This document shows positions 45,514 to 54,048 of a stretch of 64,000 bases of DNA, one piece after another. Each line of letters opens with the position of its first letter. Within the stretch, counting starts at the first letter, position 1. The stretch is from Fragilaria crotonensis (taxonomy: Eukaryota; Bacillariophyta; Fragilariophyceae; Fragilariales; Fragilariaceae): positions 1 to 64,000 of the forward strand of contig JAKSYS010000079.1 of assembly GCA_022925895.1 (NCBI GenBank). Direction: 5' to 3'. The position numbers and the translations under genes were made by a program. The notes under the pieces are model-generated. The model saw only the letters and a program-made list of their open reading frames with translations. It did no database searches and was not told where the DNA came from.

Positions 45514-46455
45514 ATGAATGTTGATATGGAACAAATAGAGCGAGCCGTTCTAGAGATTGAGGCACTCCAAGCTATTTACGAGGACAAGTTTACAGTGTAT
45601 TCCAAAACAAAGCTCCATGATACACAGATCGCTCTCGCTCAATATCATGAAGACCCTCAGACTCAACAGCTCCATTGTGAAAGTCACTTTGCCATTCCTG
45701 AACTAGAGATTGGACTCGGTATAATTGATATGGACCACAGACACAGCAGCGACAACGACACGATGCTGCAGTTGCATTTTTGTCTCCCACCTGGCTATCC
45801 TGAATCAAGCCCGGCACGAGTTCGGCTTTCCCATTGTGTGAAATTCTCCAAAAAGGTGCAAGACGACCTTTGTGTCCAATTAAATGAGAAAGCGCACGAA
45901 TTGATTGGACATGAAGCAATCCTGCTGCTTGTCCAAGAGCTTCAGGAAGTTTTGGATCAGTTGTCGACACAGGACAACACGTCTCAACCTGACACGGAGT
46001 ACTTGTCCAGATCTGCTACTGCTACAGCAGGAACTACTGCTACTACAACTTCTGTATTGGAAGGACCAGCAACTCTCCACAAAGTAGATTTGGAACGGCG
46101 GTGGATATGGGCCCATCATATCCTTGATCCTGCTAGGCGCAAATCAATTGTGAAGGAGGCCTTGGATTTAGGGTTGGGTGGCTATCTCAAACCAGGATAT
46201 CCGGGAATTGTTGTGGTGGAAGGCGATGCGTCGGCATGTGAGGAGTTTGTCCATTGGATCAAAGGCAACAAGAGCCGTCCCGGTGGATTTGGCCGAAATT
46301 GGGGACATCATGTCAAGGGTGAACTGCGCATCATCGATCGAATCCTACTAACCCCATTTAGGGAATTGGATGAAGGCATGAAGGAGCTCGGCGCACTCTG
46401 CAAAGAGCATGGTCTCAACGACGAATTTTTGGAATACGTAATGCAGCAGAAATGA
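45514..46455 (+). CDS. RWD domain and DUF1115 protein (RWDD2-like)
   Basis: 313 aa from ATG 45514, no intron. Residues 5-150 form an RWD domain: IERAVLEIEALQAIYEDKF at the start and LHFCLPPGYPESSPARVRL with the YPxxxP-type core. The C-terminal half is DUF1115: WIWAHHILDPARRKSIVKEA, GGYLKPGYPGIVVVEG and VHWIKGNKSRPGG. RWDD2 proteins in animals have this order and are poorly understood; RWD is a ubiquitin-conjugase-like protein-binding fold. The gene converges on the MsrA gene, with 174 nt between stops. Confidence 0.92.
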   Translation: MNVDMEQIERAVLEIEALQAIYEDKFTVYSKTKLHDTQIALAQYHEDPQTQQLHCESHFAIPELEIGLGIIDMDHRHSSDNDTMLQLHFCLPPGYPESSPARVRLSHCVKFSKKVQDDLCVQLNEKAHELIGHEAILLLVQELQEVLDQLSTQDNTSQPDTEYLSRSATATAGTTATTTSVLEGPATLHKVDLERRWIWAHHILDPARRKSIVKEALDLGLGGYLKPGYPGIVVVEGDASACEEFVHWIKGNKSRPGGFGRNWGHHVKGELRIIDRILLTPFRELDEGMKELGALCKEHGLNDEFLEYVMQQK

Positions 46456-46544
46456 TGTCCCATACTAACCTATCACACACAACATTCGAAGCCAGGAGCT
46501 TGTTTACAATTTTGTTTAATTCTATCAGAGCAGACTTGCTTGTA

Positions 46545-46607
46545 CACCTTGTTCGTGCTCAGGATCATGCCAGCATTTCATGAATCCGTCATTCCGAACA
46601 AAAGGTG
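46545..46607 (-). ncRNA. SECIS element in the MsrA 3' UTR
   Basis: On the minus strand, 22 nt after the MsrA stop. Helix I: CACCTT-tt-GTTCG pairs with CGAACAAGGTG (11 bp, 2-nt bulge). Internal loop GA/CA. Core quartet: ATGAC on the 5' side (46588-46592) faces TGAG (46558-46561), giving the tandem G.A/A.G pairs. Helix II: GGATtCATG pairs with CATGATCC (8 bp plus bulge). The apical loop begins AAA, 10 nt after the core UGA. All parts of a eukaryotic SECIS are in place. It would bind SBP2 and direct Sec insertion at the upstream TGA. Confidence 0.88.
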
Positions 46608-46629
46608 GGCAAGCCAATCCAAACCGATT

Positions 46630-47325
46630 TTAAAAATATCCAGTTCCTCCGGTGTGCTTCCTTAAATAATCCTGATGATAGTCCTCGGCCTGGTAGAACG
46701 GCCCTGCATCCTCCACGTCTACGTACAGCTTACGAGGCTTGATGGTTGCAGTCGTTCTTGCTGTTGTTCCACCAAAGCCATGTTGCTGCATCGTCATGTG
46801 TTGAATTTGATCCATGGCACACGATCGTTCGAATTCATTCTTGACCCAAATGGCGGATCGGTATTGTTTGCTTTGTTTGTATTGAGGATTATGCAGTTCA
46901 GACCACTCCTTCAGAATGGTTTGATAGGAAATTACAGAAGGATCATATTCAATCAGAATTGCTTCCGTAGCATCCAAGATGCAATCGTACGTGGGATTCT
47001 TCTCCACCCCACCCGTATACCCCACAACCGTTCGAACAATACCCTGCATGGATTCAAAATGCAGTTGAGGGTGCCAAAATCATCCCAAGGCCAAAATGCA
47101 AGTGTCGTATTCTGGAGAGAGCAGAGGGGTGGTGGGAATCTCCGGACAGTCGTTGCTTGCAGCAGCTGCCGCTACTGCTGATGTTGTTCGTTTGGATGAC
47201 ACAGAGACGACACCTCTGCCCCTGTACCTCATACTAGCAGCAGCGAATGCTACTGTGTACTCGAAGAAGAACGCCAACAGCAAGACTACCGGTAGTAGCT
47301 TCAGCAGCGATCGGCGAAGCAACAT
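46630..47325 (-). CDS. MSRA: Selenoprotein peptide-methionine (S)-S-oxide reductase MsrA
   Basis: 231 aa from ATG 47325 if TGA at 47082-47080 (codon 82) is read as selenocysteine. The context ILALG-U-FWHPQLHFESM is the MsrA active site, where other enzymes have GCFW. Frame is continuous on both sides. Further family motifs: VGYTGGVEKNPTYD, WSELHNPQYKQSKQYRSAIW and AEDYHQDYLRKHTGGTGYF. A hydrophobic leader (LLKLLPVVLLLAFFFEYTVAFAAASM) with an AFA motif suggests a plastid or secretory location. No C-terminal resolving Cys is present, as is typical of Sec-type algal MsrA. The SECIS lies directly downstream. It reduces methionine-S-sulfoxide in proteins and would need a selenium-competent cell. 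An earlier TTG-open frame is ignored. Confidence 0.93.
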
Positions 47326-49065
47326 CAGAGTGAATGAGGAATGATATATAAGTACAACCACAGGTACACGTACTTGTACCTGGAAGGTCCGGCCCAAGCA
47401 CGCTCCAGCCGTTATTTGTGAAATCGATGAGCGCTGACGCCAGCCGTCCTCCGATTGGCGTGATGCGACAATTTTAGCGATCTTGTTGATCCAACCGAGC
47501 CGGCAAGGTCTTTCTTTGTCAGCAATTTTTTCAGTCTGTCAGCAAATTCTGTAACTAAATTCTTAGTGTCAGCAAATTTTGTCAGCAAATTTTTGCAGAT
47601 CAGGGTCGAAACCACCAGGATGACGAATTTTGACGTCAGCAAGATGTCACGGAATGTTTCATCAAGGGAATTTCGGTTATGAAACTGAAACATGGGCACA
47701 TGTATTCCTCTATTTATATAGCTTGAATATTGAAATGTCATACTAGGGATACACACGTTGTATGGAGTTCTACCTACTGTATTAGGTGCCGTTTGAATCT
47801 TTGTGTGAGCCATTGAGCCGCGCCCATATTCAAATTTGACAGCCACGAGAGTCCCTGTACAAGAATACTGATACGTACATTTCTACGGAACTGGATTCGG
47901 CACACAATTGGATTCACAATTCCAATAAAATGTAATTTGGGACAATGGACCCCAGCTGACAATCTGCTTGTAATATCTCTGTAGTTCACTTCTTTTTTTC
48001 TTTCCAATCTGTGCATTTACAGAACATGTAGTAATTGTAGTCATTATTTGTGGAAATGGGATTGAAGCTCTCTGCTTTTGATTGATAATCTTGTCATTTT
48101 TCTGAGGAGGATGACACCAACACCGGTGTACAAGCACCAGTATCGCATCAATTCCATATTGACAAATCTCACGACGGTAATGCCGGAGTACTGTACCAGG
48201 CAACCTGAGTACTCCAGTGTAGTAGTAGAAGTAGACCTGCGTAGTCTCCAGTAGAGTTAGTGGATGTACAGCAAATGTAGGCTTCGAAGTAAGACGTATA
48301 TTGAACTCGGGTATGTATCAGGTATTACCTATGATATGATACCATGGACCACTCGAAATATTTTGTACTGTAGTATACCCTGATGACAAGTTACGAACAT
48401 CATTCTCTCTTTGTGTACGACGTGTGCGTAGAGGTGAGTATGACATACTTGTATACCACTCGCAGGTATGCACACCAGGTAGGAACATATTCGAGTGCAT
48501 GTGCATGCCGTTAACGCCAACAGAACAATCGCAACAGGAATGTGATGCACACATAATGTAAGATTCCCATCGTCAATTAGCTACTACGCGTGGAATTAAT
48601 TTTCTACGCAATCTTTGTGTATGGACTCCACATGCTGACGTCAAAAATCGTCACTCTGGTGGTTTCGACTCGGATCTCAAATCAGATTGTCGTAAGCAAA
48701 TTGTGTCAGCAAATCAGCAAATTTGATTGTCGTAAGCAAATTGTATCAGCAATTCAGCAAAATGCTCCTTAAGGCCCTCCCTTATACGAGAATTCGACCA
48801 ACAAAAACAGTTCTAACACACAGAATTGTCGGTCACTTCTGTTGTCACCGTCCTTATAGTAAAACCCAACAATTCTCTTAATCGTGTTAGTCAAATGGGA
48901 AACGTGTGGTCCTCCAAGCATGGAATCTTCGCTTTCAACAAAAGTATATATCTTCCCCTTTTTCCTATCTTTTCGCGCCTGTTGTCACAATGATTGTTTC
49001 ACCTTCTATTGCAACTTCCTCCCTCACATTTTCCCTGCAGCAGATCTTCCAGTGCTTTCAGCATC

Positions 49066-50932: not shown

Positions 50933-52687
50933 CTAGTAAGAAGGTTCCGGCACACGTGTACTTCTGCTCCTTGGCCATTTTATTTGGCGTCGATGATACG
51001 CAATATCAAAATGAGTGATCAGGCGTTTGCGAAACTCGACCAGAGACAAGTTCCGAACTCCAACCGGAACATCTGCCTGCTCTGCGATTAGTACATCATC
51101 ATTGCTGTGTTCTTGATTGTCGCTGGTATTGTCGTCTAGTACTGCTGTACCGTCAGCACATGCAATCGTGTCAGGGAACGTGTCACTTCCAGGACCCATC
51201 CCCGACAAGTCGTACGTTCGCATTGCCACTGGATTGTGAAGGTTGCGAATGGCCTGCGGAATTACGCAGTCATCCTCAGGACTGTGTTCTCCAAGTGGTC
51301 CATCCCACTCGCTGTCCACAGTTGAAACGCCGTTATTCCAGGTAGTCGCAAACCCGTCTGTTTCTAACAGCCAATTGTGCAGTGCACAACAAGTAAGAAA
51401 GATCTTGTCGGCGCACTCAACTCCATTCAATCGGATGCCGGTCTTGAGTATCCGCCATCTTCCCTTTAGGATTCCGAACGTACATTCAACATCCTTTCTC
51501 ATCGATTCAAGCCACGAAGAAAATCGAATTTCAGTTCGACTACTTGTTGTTTTGATTGGTGGAACTGTTGTCGGCCAAGCTAAATATCCGTTGTCGACCA
51601 AAAGCCACGCACCCTGGTACCTTCGCGTTTTCACAATGTTAGGAATATTGCCCCCACTTTCATCGGCACCACCAGCAGCCGCCGTTGACTCGTACAAATC
51701 AAAATGCATGTCTTGCATAATGATTCCATCCTTCAAATCGGTCATGAAGTTATCGAACAAAGCCAACGTTTTGTCGTTCCAACGCGCAGGATGTCCTGAT
51801 GTTGTCGCAAGAATTTGGCGGCGATGATTAACTGTGATATTATACGTCCGTGCTGTGTGAGACATCTTAAAACCAATGTGTGTTTGTCGGAGGCGATATG
51901 AGACGCGTTCAAGCATGATGTGAGTTGCATCAGTACTCCCAATTGCTCCAGGAAAGCCTGCCATTTCGTACTCAGCAGTATGAGTGCGCGCCTCTTGGCA
52001 ATTTGTAGGCGAACGTACATACTGCCTGTACAAAATAGTACTTCCAAAATCGATGAAGGTGTGAAAAAAAACACGAATGGTCTCTTCACTGATGGACGTA
52101 TTCTCAGAAAGGTCATCAAACGTCCATCCTCGTCCCAGGTAGCGAAGCGAAGTCAACAAGAGAAGAGAAATGGGGGTAGATTGAACCCGTGACCATGGAT
52201 TGATTTTCCCATCATGCCAGCGCGAAAACGACGCTTCTGTTTCCAGGCGATCATTCAGTTCACGGAACTGTGCATATGGCAAACGAAACCGTAAACGAAA
52301 TAACGTATGAAATTGTGGATTCTCAAGATCCGGGGCAGCAACATACACACTGTACCAAAATGTCTGTCTTGGGAGAATGGGGCGTCGTCTGCCATCTTGA
52401 TCTGTCCACATTGCAGTCCTTTTTGAACGACGCTTCTTCCTTGTCGGCGCATCTGTATTATTCGAGGATTGCTCTTCCTCACCCCCGTCAACCACAGAGG
52501 AATTAACACCAAGAGAAGGCTCCTCCTCAACTTGCTGGAGGAGAATCATGCGGAGGGTGTTGTCAACAACCTGACAGTCAATATCACTGTCATCATCATC
52601 ACCCACTGGCACATCAGGGAATAAGCTGCGGATACTGCCTTCTTCTTGGTGCTGCTCATGGAAATCATCATGAGTTGCAGATGACAT
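50933..52687 (-). CDS. PIF/Harbinger transposase (DDE_4 type)
   Basis: 584 aa from ATG 52687; a TTG lies three codons upstream. The N-terminal part is acidic with a basic patch (TRKKRRSKRTA). YLGRGWTFDDLSENTSISEETIRVFFHTF is the helix-turn-helix-like segment ahead of the catalytic core. DDE residues: GSTDATHIMLERV (first D), LLVDNGYLAWPT (second D) and WLESMRKDVECTFGILKGRWRIL (E), followed by CCALHNWLLE, all typical. No stop or shift in 584 codons. Likely active nuclease that cuts at the 15-bp ends and inserts at TWA sites. Confidence 0.95.
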   Translation of the reverse strand: MSSATHDDFHEQHQEEGSIRSLFPDVPVGDDDDSDIDCQVVDNTLRMILLQQVEEEPSLGVNSSVVDGGEEEQSSNNTDAPTRKKRRSKRTAMWTDQDGRRRPILPRQTFWYSVYVAAPDLENPQFHTLFRLRFRLPYAQFRELNDRLETEASFSRWHDGKINPWSRVQSTPISLLLLTSLRYLGRGWTFDDLSENTSISEETIRVFFHTFIDFGSTILYRQYVRSPTNCQEARTHTAEYEMAGFPGAIGSTDATHIMLERVSYRLRQTHIGFKMSHTARTYNITVNHRRQILATTSGHPARWNDKTLALFDNFMTDLKDGIIMQDMHFDLYESTAAAGGADESGGNIPNIVKTRRYQGAWLLVDNGYLAWPTTVPPIKTTSSRTEIRFSSWLESMRKDVECTFGILKGRWRILKTGIRLNGVECADKIFLTCCALHNWLLETDGFATTWNNGVSTVDSEWDGPLGEHSPEDDCVIPQAIRNLHNPVAMRTYDLSGMGPGSDTFPDTIACADGTAVLDDNTSDNQEHSNDDVLIAEQADVPVGVRNLSLVEFRKRLITHFDIAYHRRQIKWPRSRSTRVPEPSY

Positions 52688-53139
52688 GATGGACAACTAT
52701 GAGGCAATTCCGTTGTTGGTTACCATATCTTGTTGTTGGTGGAATATCCTCCACGACCAGCGACAACCACACAAAAGGCTAGTTTTGGAATCCAACTTTT
52801 TCATTTCGAGCTGAATGGCCATTAAAAACAGGAATCTCACAGAATTGTTATTACTTCTGTTGGCCGTTCGGTCAGCAATTCTGTTCAACAGAATTGGCGG
52901 TGATAGGTTATCAGTCAGGTGCCGACAATTCTAAAATCAGAATTGTTATTGCTTTTGTTGTGTATAAGGACGGTGAAAGCGACAAAAAGGGGGAAAACGC
53001 GGAGTAATTATCAATTTTTGTTTTTGTTTTTGCCCCGTATAAGGGAGGGCCTAAAAGAAAAACGTGAGTCTTGGATTCCCATGTCCACGGCGACATAAAC
53101 TAATGTTCTACTATGAAAGCCAATTCTGTAAACAATTAT

Positions 53140-53345
53140 TTTTGCTGACGAAGCAAATTCGATTCACCCTAAGCAATTTTTTTGCTGAATCAGCAAATTC
53201 GATTCTCCGTAAGCAATGTTTTTGCTGATTCAGAAAATTTGCTTTTCAGTAAGCAAATTTGCTTTTCGTAAGCAAATTGTTTAAGCAATTTTATTCTGTC
53301 AGCAAATTTGTCTTCCTGTAAGCAAATTTTTTTGCAGACGCCAGC
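53140..53345. repeat. AAGCAAATT/TCAGCAAATT repeat tract
   Basis: Right arm of the foldback-like element. Repeated words GTAAGCAAATT and TGCTGAATCAGCAAATTC recur about every 20-30 bp; the matching left-arm tract is at 47510-47620 and 48680-48765. Confidence 0.75.
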
Positions 53346-53531
53346 TGCACTATAATCACGCCGGCATATCCAGTTTTACACCAGCCAGACATTGAACGGA
53401 ACCGATTTCTCCTCCGGCCGGCGCGTTTCTTCTTTATTCACGATTCAGTACCTATGTGCCGGACCTTCCTGTCTCCCCGCACCCCACACACACGTCCACT
53501 GCACTGCATGCTGCATAGACTCCAGACTGCA

Positions 53532-54048
53532 GGAAGGTCCGGCAATACACGCTTAGTCGTGAATCAAGGTCGAATTCACGCTGGCCGGAGGCGAAAATCA
53601 TTTCCGTTCTGTGTCTGGCTGGTGCTAAACTGGTTATGCCAGCGTCATCGTCGTTTTGCTGACACTTGCTGACGAAAAGACAGATCTGCTGACATCCGCT
53701 GACAAAAAACGAATTTGCTGACGTCTGCTGACGAAATTCGAATCTGCTGACATTTTCTGACATATGATGACGAAAACGAGTTTTTTCCAGTACAAAAGCT
53801 ACGGTGATGCTGACATCTTCTGACGTTTGCTGACGAGAATCAAGTTTGCTGACATTTGCTGACGAAAAGCAAATCTGCTGACATTTGCTGACGAAAAAGA
53901 AATCCGCTGACATTTGCTGAACCTTGCCAGCTCGAATGATACGACAAAGATCCTAACAAGCTCTCATCACGCCGGCCGGTCATTGGCTGGCGCGCACATC
54001 CTTAAGGTACATCTGTTAATCGCGAAACGTGCTTGGGCCGGACCTTCC
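53532..54048. mobile_element. Inverted partner of the foldback-like element (517 bp)
   Basis: It begins GGAAGGTCCGGCAATACACG and ends CGTGCTTGGGCCGGACCTTCC. The left half mirrors 53345-53469: GGCCGGAGGCGAAAATC, TTCCGTTCTGTGTCTGGCTGG and TATGCCAGCG are the complements of words there. The right end mirrors 47382-47402. So it is the same family in opposite orientation, 62 bp away. Flanks AGACTGCA and AGACTCTA may be a worn 8-bp target duplication. Confidence 0.65.
53655..53925. repeat. TGCTGACATYTGCTGACGAAAA tandem array
   Basis: About ten irregular units of 20-30 bp built on TTTGCTGACA and TGCTGACGAAA, inside the 53532-54048 element. An open minus-strand frame through it only reflects the repeat. 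Confidence 0.85.

Follow-up and report, generated by a model that had tools for sequence, protein, structure and literature searches.

Here we report a gene for the peptide methionine-S-sulfoxide reductase MsrA in a 64,000-nt stretch of DNA (hereafter the window) from the diatom Fragilaria crotonensis (assembly GCA_022925895.1, contig JAKSYS010000079.1, positions 1 to 64,000, forward strand). The contig carries the label C786 in our analysis of the genome assembly, which comprises 62.1 Mb in 881 contigs. The open reading frame (ORF) of the gene lies on the minus strand, extends from the first in-frame ATG to a TAA and contains a single in-frame TGA at codon 82, behind which 149 sense codons follow. 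A convergent gene with an RWD domain bounds its 3' region (Table 1). The observations are best explained by a nuclear diatom gene for a selenocysteine (Sec)-containing MsrA, a reading that we consider very probable.

The Pfam PMSR model (PF01625) covers residues on both sides of the TGA (E-value 5.4e-32, 111.6 bits, cut-off 23.7), and the protein has the MsrA fold; the curated NCBIfam msrA model TIGR00401 scored 95 bits, under its cut-off of 108.1. Residues Y103, E121 and Y155 are conserved in at least 90% of the aligned rows, and we take them, together with an Asp five residues before the Tyr of a QYR motif, to be catalytic residues in MsrA. This Asp is present in one of the genome's own Cys enzymes (contig C427) and absent from the window protein. 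The TGA is aligned with the Cys or Sec of homologues, and the nucleophile motif of MsrA (G-C/U-F-W) is complete only if the TGA is read as Sec. An earlier reading made from the sequence alone had described a G-TGA-FW active site in a frame that continues through all MsrA motifs, which the ORF and the PMSR match across the TGA bear out. It had also expected standard annotation to start the gene at a downstream Met, and table-11 calling (ORFs of at least 120 aa considered) indeed yielded an ORF of 139 aa from Met93 (46630-47049).

Table 1. Features of the MsrA locus in the window. Papers are cited here and in the text by PMC number.
Feature	Position	Strand	Remarks
MsrA coding sequence, 231 residues including putative Sec82	46630..47325	minus	stop TAA at 46632-46630
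Predicted signal peptide, residues 1-26 (MLLRRSLLKLLPVVLLLAFFFEYTVA)	47248..47325	minus	hydrophobic core computed; cleavage point placed by eye after the ASAFAP rule (PMC4329603)
Predicted plastid transit peptide, residues 27-59, starting with Phe27	47149..47247	minus	hydropathy and by eye
CPEIP motif, residues 60-64	47134..47148	minus	Cys60 conserved in 15/15 clade sequences that reach it
MsrA catalytic domain, residues 76-226	46648..47100	minus	Pfam PMSR match
In-frame TGA, putative Sec82, catalytic position of G-U-F-W	47080..47082	minus	same codon in the paralogues on C164 and C871
SECIS-like element in the 3' untranslated region	46530..46620	minus	own descriptor and folding
Convergent RWD-domain gene, ending in TGA	45514..46455	plus	bounds the 3' region of the MsrA gene

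A PMSR search of the whole genome gave 14 matches, three of which have an internal TGA (the window gene and genes on contigs C164 and C871). In all three, the TGA stands at the Cys of GCFW (C164, ..VACG-U-FWGPQ..; C871, ..LAMG-U-FWGPQ..); the C871 model needs an intron, and of 23 GT-AG introns that preserve the frame, the 77-nt one was picked by its resemblance to the window gene. Seven other MsrA-like genes, on C427, C621, C545, C109, C672, C797 and C831, have Cys at the site (C54 and C261 stand outside this count). The genes on C621 (locus L002) and C545 (L003), each with a Cys-MsrA domain, are near-identical and are perhaps alleles or recent duplicates.

A hairpin resembling a selenocysteine insertion sequence (SECIS) is predicted between the MsrA stop and the convergent RWD stop. 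It combines ATGA at 46592-46589 and GA at 46560-46559 with a helix I of 21 pairs, a helix II of 8 pairs and the apical loop AAATGCTGG, which has AAA at its start, so that our own descriptor and folding recognised the ATGA/GA core, both helices and the apical AA of a SECIS. The free minimum-energy fold of 46620-46530 agrees with this shape (-32.8 kcal/mol, z -3.0, equalled by 0 of 200 shuffles), and the remainder of the 3' region is less stably folded than its own shuffles (z +1.9). A strict SECIS descriptor, drafted after this hairpin had been seen, gave 12 partly overlapping hits when both strands of the window were scanned; helix I reached -26.5 kcal/mol here versus -7.1 to -15.2 kcal/mol in the other 11. 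When the 193-nt region was shuffled 5000 times, 56 shuffles contained a strict hit, the best with a helix I of -18.8 kcal/mol, and none reached the observed value.

The genome also encodes machinery for Sec insertion. Genes for eEFSec (contig C415; euk_SelB_III, 7.7e-27; eEFSec_4th, 1.5e-15), SECIS-binding protein 2 (SBP2; contig C591; best PDB match 7zjw, SECIS-binding protein 2, 5.4e-19) and selenophosphate synthetase (contig C753, 1.5e-77) are all present, and a SelT gene on contig C173 (L072) has a TGA in CVGU. The SBP2 homologue (L159, 1-1815) additionally matches RRM_1, with 8.5e-12 for the whole protein. Contig C173 carries a second SelT gene about 19 kb from the first (pair L072/L073) that has Cys where the first has TGA. 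This copy retains a 3' stretch ATGA..TTGATAATGATTGATG (identical columns: 41/50 and 36/40 within the first 90 past the stop, 27/50 beyond) and may have exchanged Sec for Cys while keeping a remnant of the SECIS. A plastid contig with EF-Tu is likewise part of the assembly.

We conclude that the in-frame TGA is most likely read as Sec at the catalytic centre, because a SECIS-like hairpin, the same TGA in two paralogues, the state of the site in database relatives (see below) and genes for eEFSec and SBP2 point the same way; the corresponding claim of the sequence-only reading is thus upheld.

Several results weigh against this conclusion. The Rfam SECIS models matched nothing in the window from 45600 to 47600 (E-values up to 10; one snoRNA match lay far below its cut-off) and nothing in the loci L029, L030, L072 and L073, three of them with TGA genes (E-values up to 5). 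Since Rfam is silent on L072 despite its SelT gene with a TGA in CVGU, it provides no test here; either the library is blind to such SECIS elements or the hairpins are unusual. Neither paralogue passes the strict descriptor, and their hairpin evidence is weaker. In C164, the elements ATGAC..AA..TGAG lie in a fold whose optimality depends on the chosen ends (for one choice, z is -0.47 and the best fold is not SECIS-shaped). The hairpin of C871 is long and strong (z -3.96, equalled by 1 of 200 shuffles) and has no AA at the usual position. The search for tRNA-Sec with Rfam RF01852, in which 53 of 5073 tRNA candidates of the genome were scored, returned four plastid tRNAs, below the cut-off, which ARAGORN read as Leu, Leu, Ser and Gly. 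Pattern searches for tRNA-Sec gave 8, 144 and 228 matches, the last with up to three mismatches, none of which was established as tRNA-Sec; ARAGORN found seven tRNAs, none for Sec, in 79 loci that included loci from the 8- and 144-match searches (30 loci cut from the latter). An exon-by-exon search of the genome with two models gave no candidate for SepSecS, and no bacterial SelA candidate was found in the genome; an assembly gap or introns are perhaps the cause of both results. The absence of tRNA-Sec, SBP2 and EFsec had been named beforehand as grounds for rejecting Sec; SBP2 and eEFSec are present, and tRNA-Sec, which was not located, is not found rather than absent. In other diatoms, tRNA-Sec has been sequenced from Thalassiosira pseudonana (PMC2375036) and annotated in Nitzschia inconspicua (PMC8329260).

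Database relatives, here denoted by P numbers, were collected with a first search (587 hits, best 120 listed) and a profile search (6009 hits of 7999 scored, best 120 listed). In a tree of 59 hand-picked rows, 25 rows that include the window gene and both paralogues form one group (100/97), hereafter the clade. Within it, a separate set of C164-type rows has support of 99/97, and the set of window-type rows is weaker (80/89); the Cys-form rows P0182 and P0019 have long branches and stand at the base of the clade or are not placed by the tree. The clostridial selenoprotein falls outside the diatom clade, together with P0185 (97/94), on a long branch of 1.39 and with weak deeper forks. Descent of the diatom genes from a clostridial Sec-MsrA finds no support in this tree, where the clostridial row falls outside the clade.

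The window protein begins with a leader (..FFEYTVA-FAAASMRYRGRG..) of the ASAFAP type, judged by eye and from hydropathy: a signal peptide is followed by Phe at +1 and a basic transit peptide poor in acids, and the 40 residues between the hydrophobic core and CPEIP have a net charge of +3 with two acids. Phe also stands at the cleavage point in both paralogues (C164, ..TPQA-FHRLNS; C871, ..CKS-FSFVRP) and in the relatives P0003 (VSS-FGLN), P0154 (IVA-FTPS), P0159 (IHS-FVPP), P0187 (VLG-FQQP) and P0189 (AFA-FNGY, counted from an inner Met of its model). Altogether, a plastid-type leader occurs in 8 of the 10 clade sequences that have at least 25 residues before the CPxx motif or the site. Two Cys-MsrAs of the same genome, on C427 (..TASAFGPTAV..) and C109 (..VVAFSPSA..), carry such leaders as well. 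The AFA-type leader reported by the sequence-only reading is present, and the plastid location that it considered is probable but stays a prediction from sequence.

It is possible, though improbable, that the Sec-MsrA works outside the plastid stroma, with the leader directing it to the endoplasmic reticulum (ER), the secretory pathway or an intermembrane space of the plastid. The localisation is read from a motif, and some sequences of the clade do not fit it: the Cys forms P0019 and P0182 are the two of ten without a leader (P0182, which begins with V, may be incomplete), six relatives' models that span the site (P0008, P0009, P0011, P0140, P0156 and P0183) have none and start no more than 10 residues ahead of CPEIP, and the leader region of C871, with seven acidic residues, is less typical. 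For the six spanning models, the gene caller perhaps started behind an intron. Against a location outside the stroma stand the recurrence of Phe at the cleavage point in both subclades and the statement that Phe at +1 is crucial for plastid import (PMC4329603). The MsrA is thus probably sent to the chloroplast.

Most public models of the closest relatives do not include the active site. Among the 16 closest rows of the first search, 12 start behind the site and four have Trp there. The 75 listed rows with E-values of at most 2.4e-34 comprise 67 that begin behind the site (61 of them with Met), six with Trp, two that skip the site (Cyclotella and Seminavis) and none with Cys, so the active site is missing from most of these closest listed entries. 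Six of the 75 rows are named (Chaetoceros tenuissimus, Thalassiosira sp., Conticribra weissflogii, Cyclotella cf. meneghiniana, Seminavis robusta and Trieres chinensis), and we take all six genera to be diatoms. Their public models (P0125, P0135, P0144, P0154, P0159 and P0166) start behind the putative Sec codon or skip it, and the first residues of the Conticribra row, FWHPQ, are those that directly follow the site. Trp also occupies the site in four of the 45 weaker listed rows (P0183, P0185, P0187 and P0189); two more (P0184 and P0192) begin after it, and the remaining 39, namely bacterial-type rows plus P0182 and P0019, carry Cys. No relatives were detected in viral contigs; prokaryote genomes gave 573 confirmed stretches, with a highest identity of 38% among the best 80 kept.

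A pseudogene or sequencing error, in which a Cys codon (TGC or TGT) became TGA and nothing past codon 82 is produced, requires a change of one base and is nevertheless very unlikely: the TGA recurs at the same codon in two diverged paralogues, the frame is otherwise intact over 231 codons, the SECIS-like hairpin and the Sec machinery genes are present, and P0002, which is 96% identical and comes from another source (perhaps of the same species), starts at the same Met. Similarly small is the chance that the true product is the 139-aa protein from Met93. Most of the relatives that start behind the site do begin with Met, but such a product would be missing the catalytic residue as well as the domain's first strand, and both the CPEIP stretch and the leader upstream of Met93 recur in relatives. 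A changed code, with TGA read as Trp or another standard residue, deserves hardly any credence despite the Trp in six of the 75 closest and four of the weaker listed rows, since the adjacent RWD gene ends in TGA, which is thus used as a stop in this genome, Trp at the catalytic position would provide no nucleophile, and gene callers set to code 4 print Trp for TGA. The Trp of the relatives is most simply understood as TGA printed by such gene callers. A point on the other side is that it could be a real TGG, which has been named as a possible change from TGA (PMC7539508).

All 13 clade rows examined have the Cys of the CPxx motif, as do C164 and C871; where the site could be located, this Cys precedes it by 20-22 residues. 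The motif reads CPLL in P0019 and P0182, the Cys forms. The P0159 model skips the region and does not reach this Cys, which is also missing from P0185, a row outside the clade. Behind the site, the clade as a whole has no Cys in common (4 of 12 rows scored, P0003, P0008, P0140 and P0156, have none), and for this reason Cys60 is perhaps the resolving residue. Against this idea, P0183, P0187 and P0189 share Cys residues 17 and about 91 residues behind the site, and C164 has both, so the C164-type subclade has other resolving candidates. A structure model gives the block 61-70 a predicted local distance difference test (pLDDT) score of 97, which suggests that the arm adjoining Cys60 is part of the fold.

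In the proposed mechanism, the ribosome would reach the UGA at codon 82, where the SECIS hairpin of the 3' untranslated region would recruit SBP2 and eEFSec with Sec-tRNA, and Sec would be inserted. The nascent protein would enter the ER by its signal peptide and pass onward across the membranes of the complex plastid with the help of its Phe-led transit peptide. Once inside, the selenolate would attack the Met-S-sulfoxide of oxidised proteins, releasing Met and leaving a selenenic acid, which may be resolved by glutaredoxin or glutathione, or perhaps by Cys60.

Sec-MsrA has precedents, and MsrA counts among the Sec families with the widest distribution in algae (PMC7539508). The Sec-MsrA of T. 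pseudonana (Lobanov 2007, PMC2375036) is likewise encoded in a diatom nuclear genome and was found by SECIS search; its targeting and Cys pattern are not discussed in the accessible text. The MsrA protein of T. pseudonana increases 2.2-fold in high light, with the Sec or Cys form not stated in the accessible text (PMC5139114). Like the window protein in the proposed reading, the 1-Cys type enzyme of Clostridium oremlandii (4lwj-4lwm, PMC4479559) has Sec at the catalytic position, and both lack a GTTGHAEA-type insertion and the Asp five residues before the Tyr of QYxS. The clostridial enzyme differs in having a C-terminal helical domain and no other Cys; with Sec it outperforms its Cys version 20-fold, and glutaredoxin rather than thioredoxin reduces it (PMC4479559). 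The Sec-GPx of Chlamydomonas (PMC3095285) is likewise a nuclear selenoprotein with predicted chloroplast targeting, in another enzyme family and with a primary plastid. MsrA_b of the Mamiellophyceae (PMC6627142), an algal Sec-MsrA likened here by description, belongs to green algae and is termed bacterium-like. The sequence-only reading had seen the new point in the plastid-type leader of a Sec-MsrA. Sec-MsrA itself is already published for a diatom (PMC2375036), and a literature search, whose coverage leaves out most subscription journals, found no report of such a leader on MsrA or of plastid targeting of Sec-MsrA. The main text of PMC7539508 contains no word beginning with plastid, chloroplast or targeting.

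Two further observations concern the surroundings of the gene. A transposase ORF of 587 aa at 50933-52696 on the minus strand, with DDE_Tnp_4 and Plant_tran matches, is presumably PIF/Harbinger-like. The word TTTGCTGACA occurs nine times versus 0.2 expected, at isolated sites and within 47537-47589, 48678-48757 and 53139-53921; some copies belong to diverged tandem arrays spaced at 29 and 40 nt, and one cluster lies just upstream of the MsrA gene.

Sec-MsrA as a kind is already known from diatoms, and further interest lies in its plastid-type leader, which recurs in relatives, and in the invariant Cys60. Many diatoms need selenium for growth. A plastid selenoenzyme of Met-sulfoxide repair would link this need to photosynthesis under light stress and, in a bolder reading that is rather unlikely, selenium supply would directly limit the repair of photo-oxidised plastid proteins.
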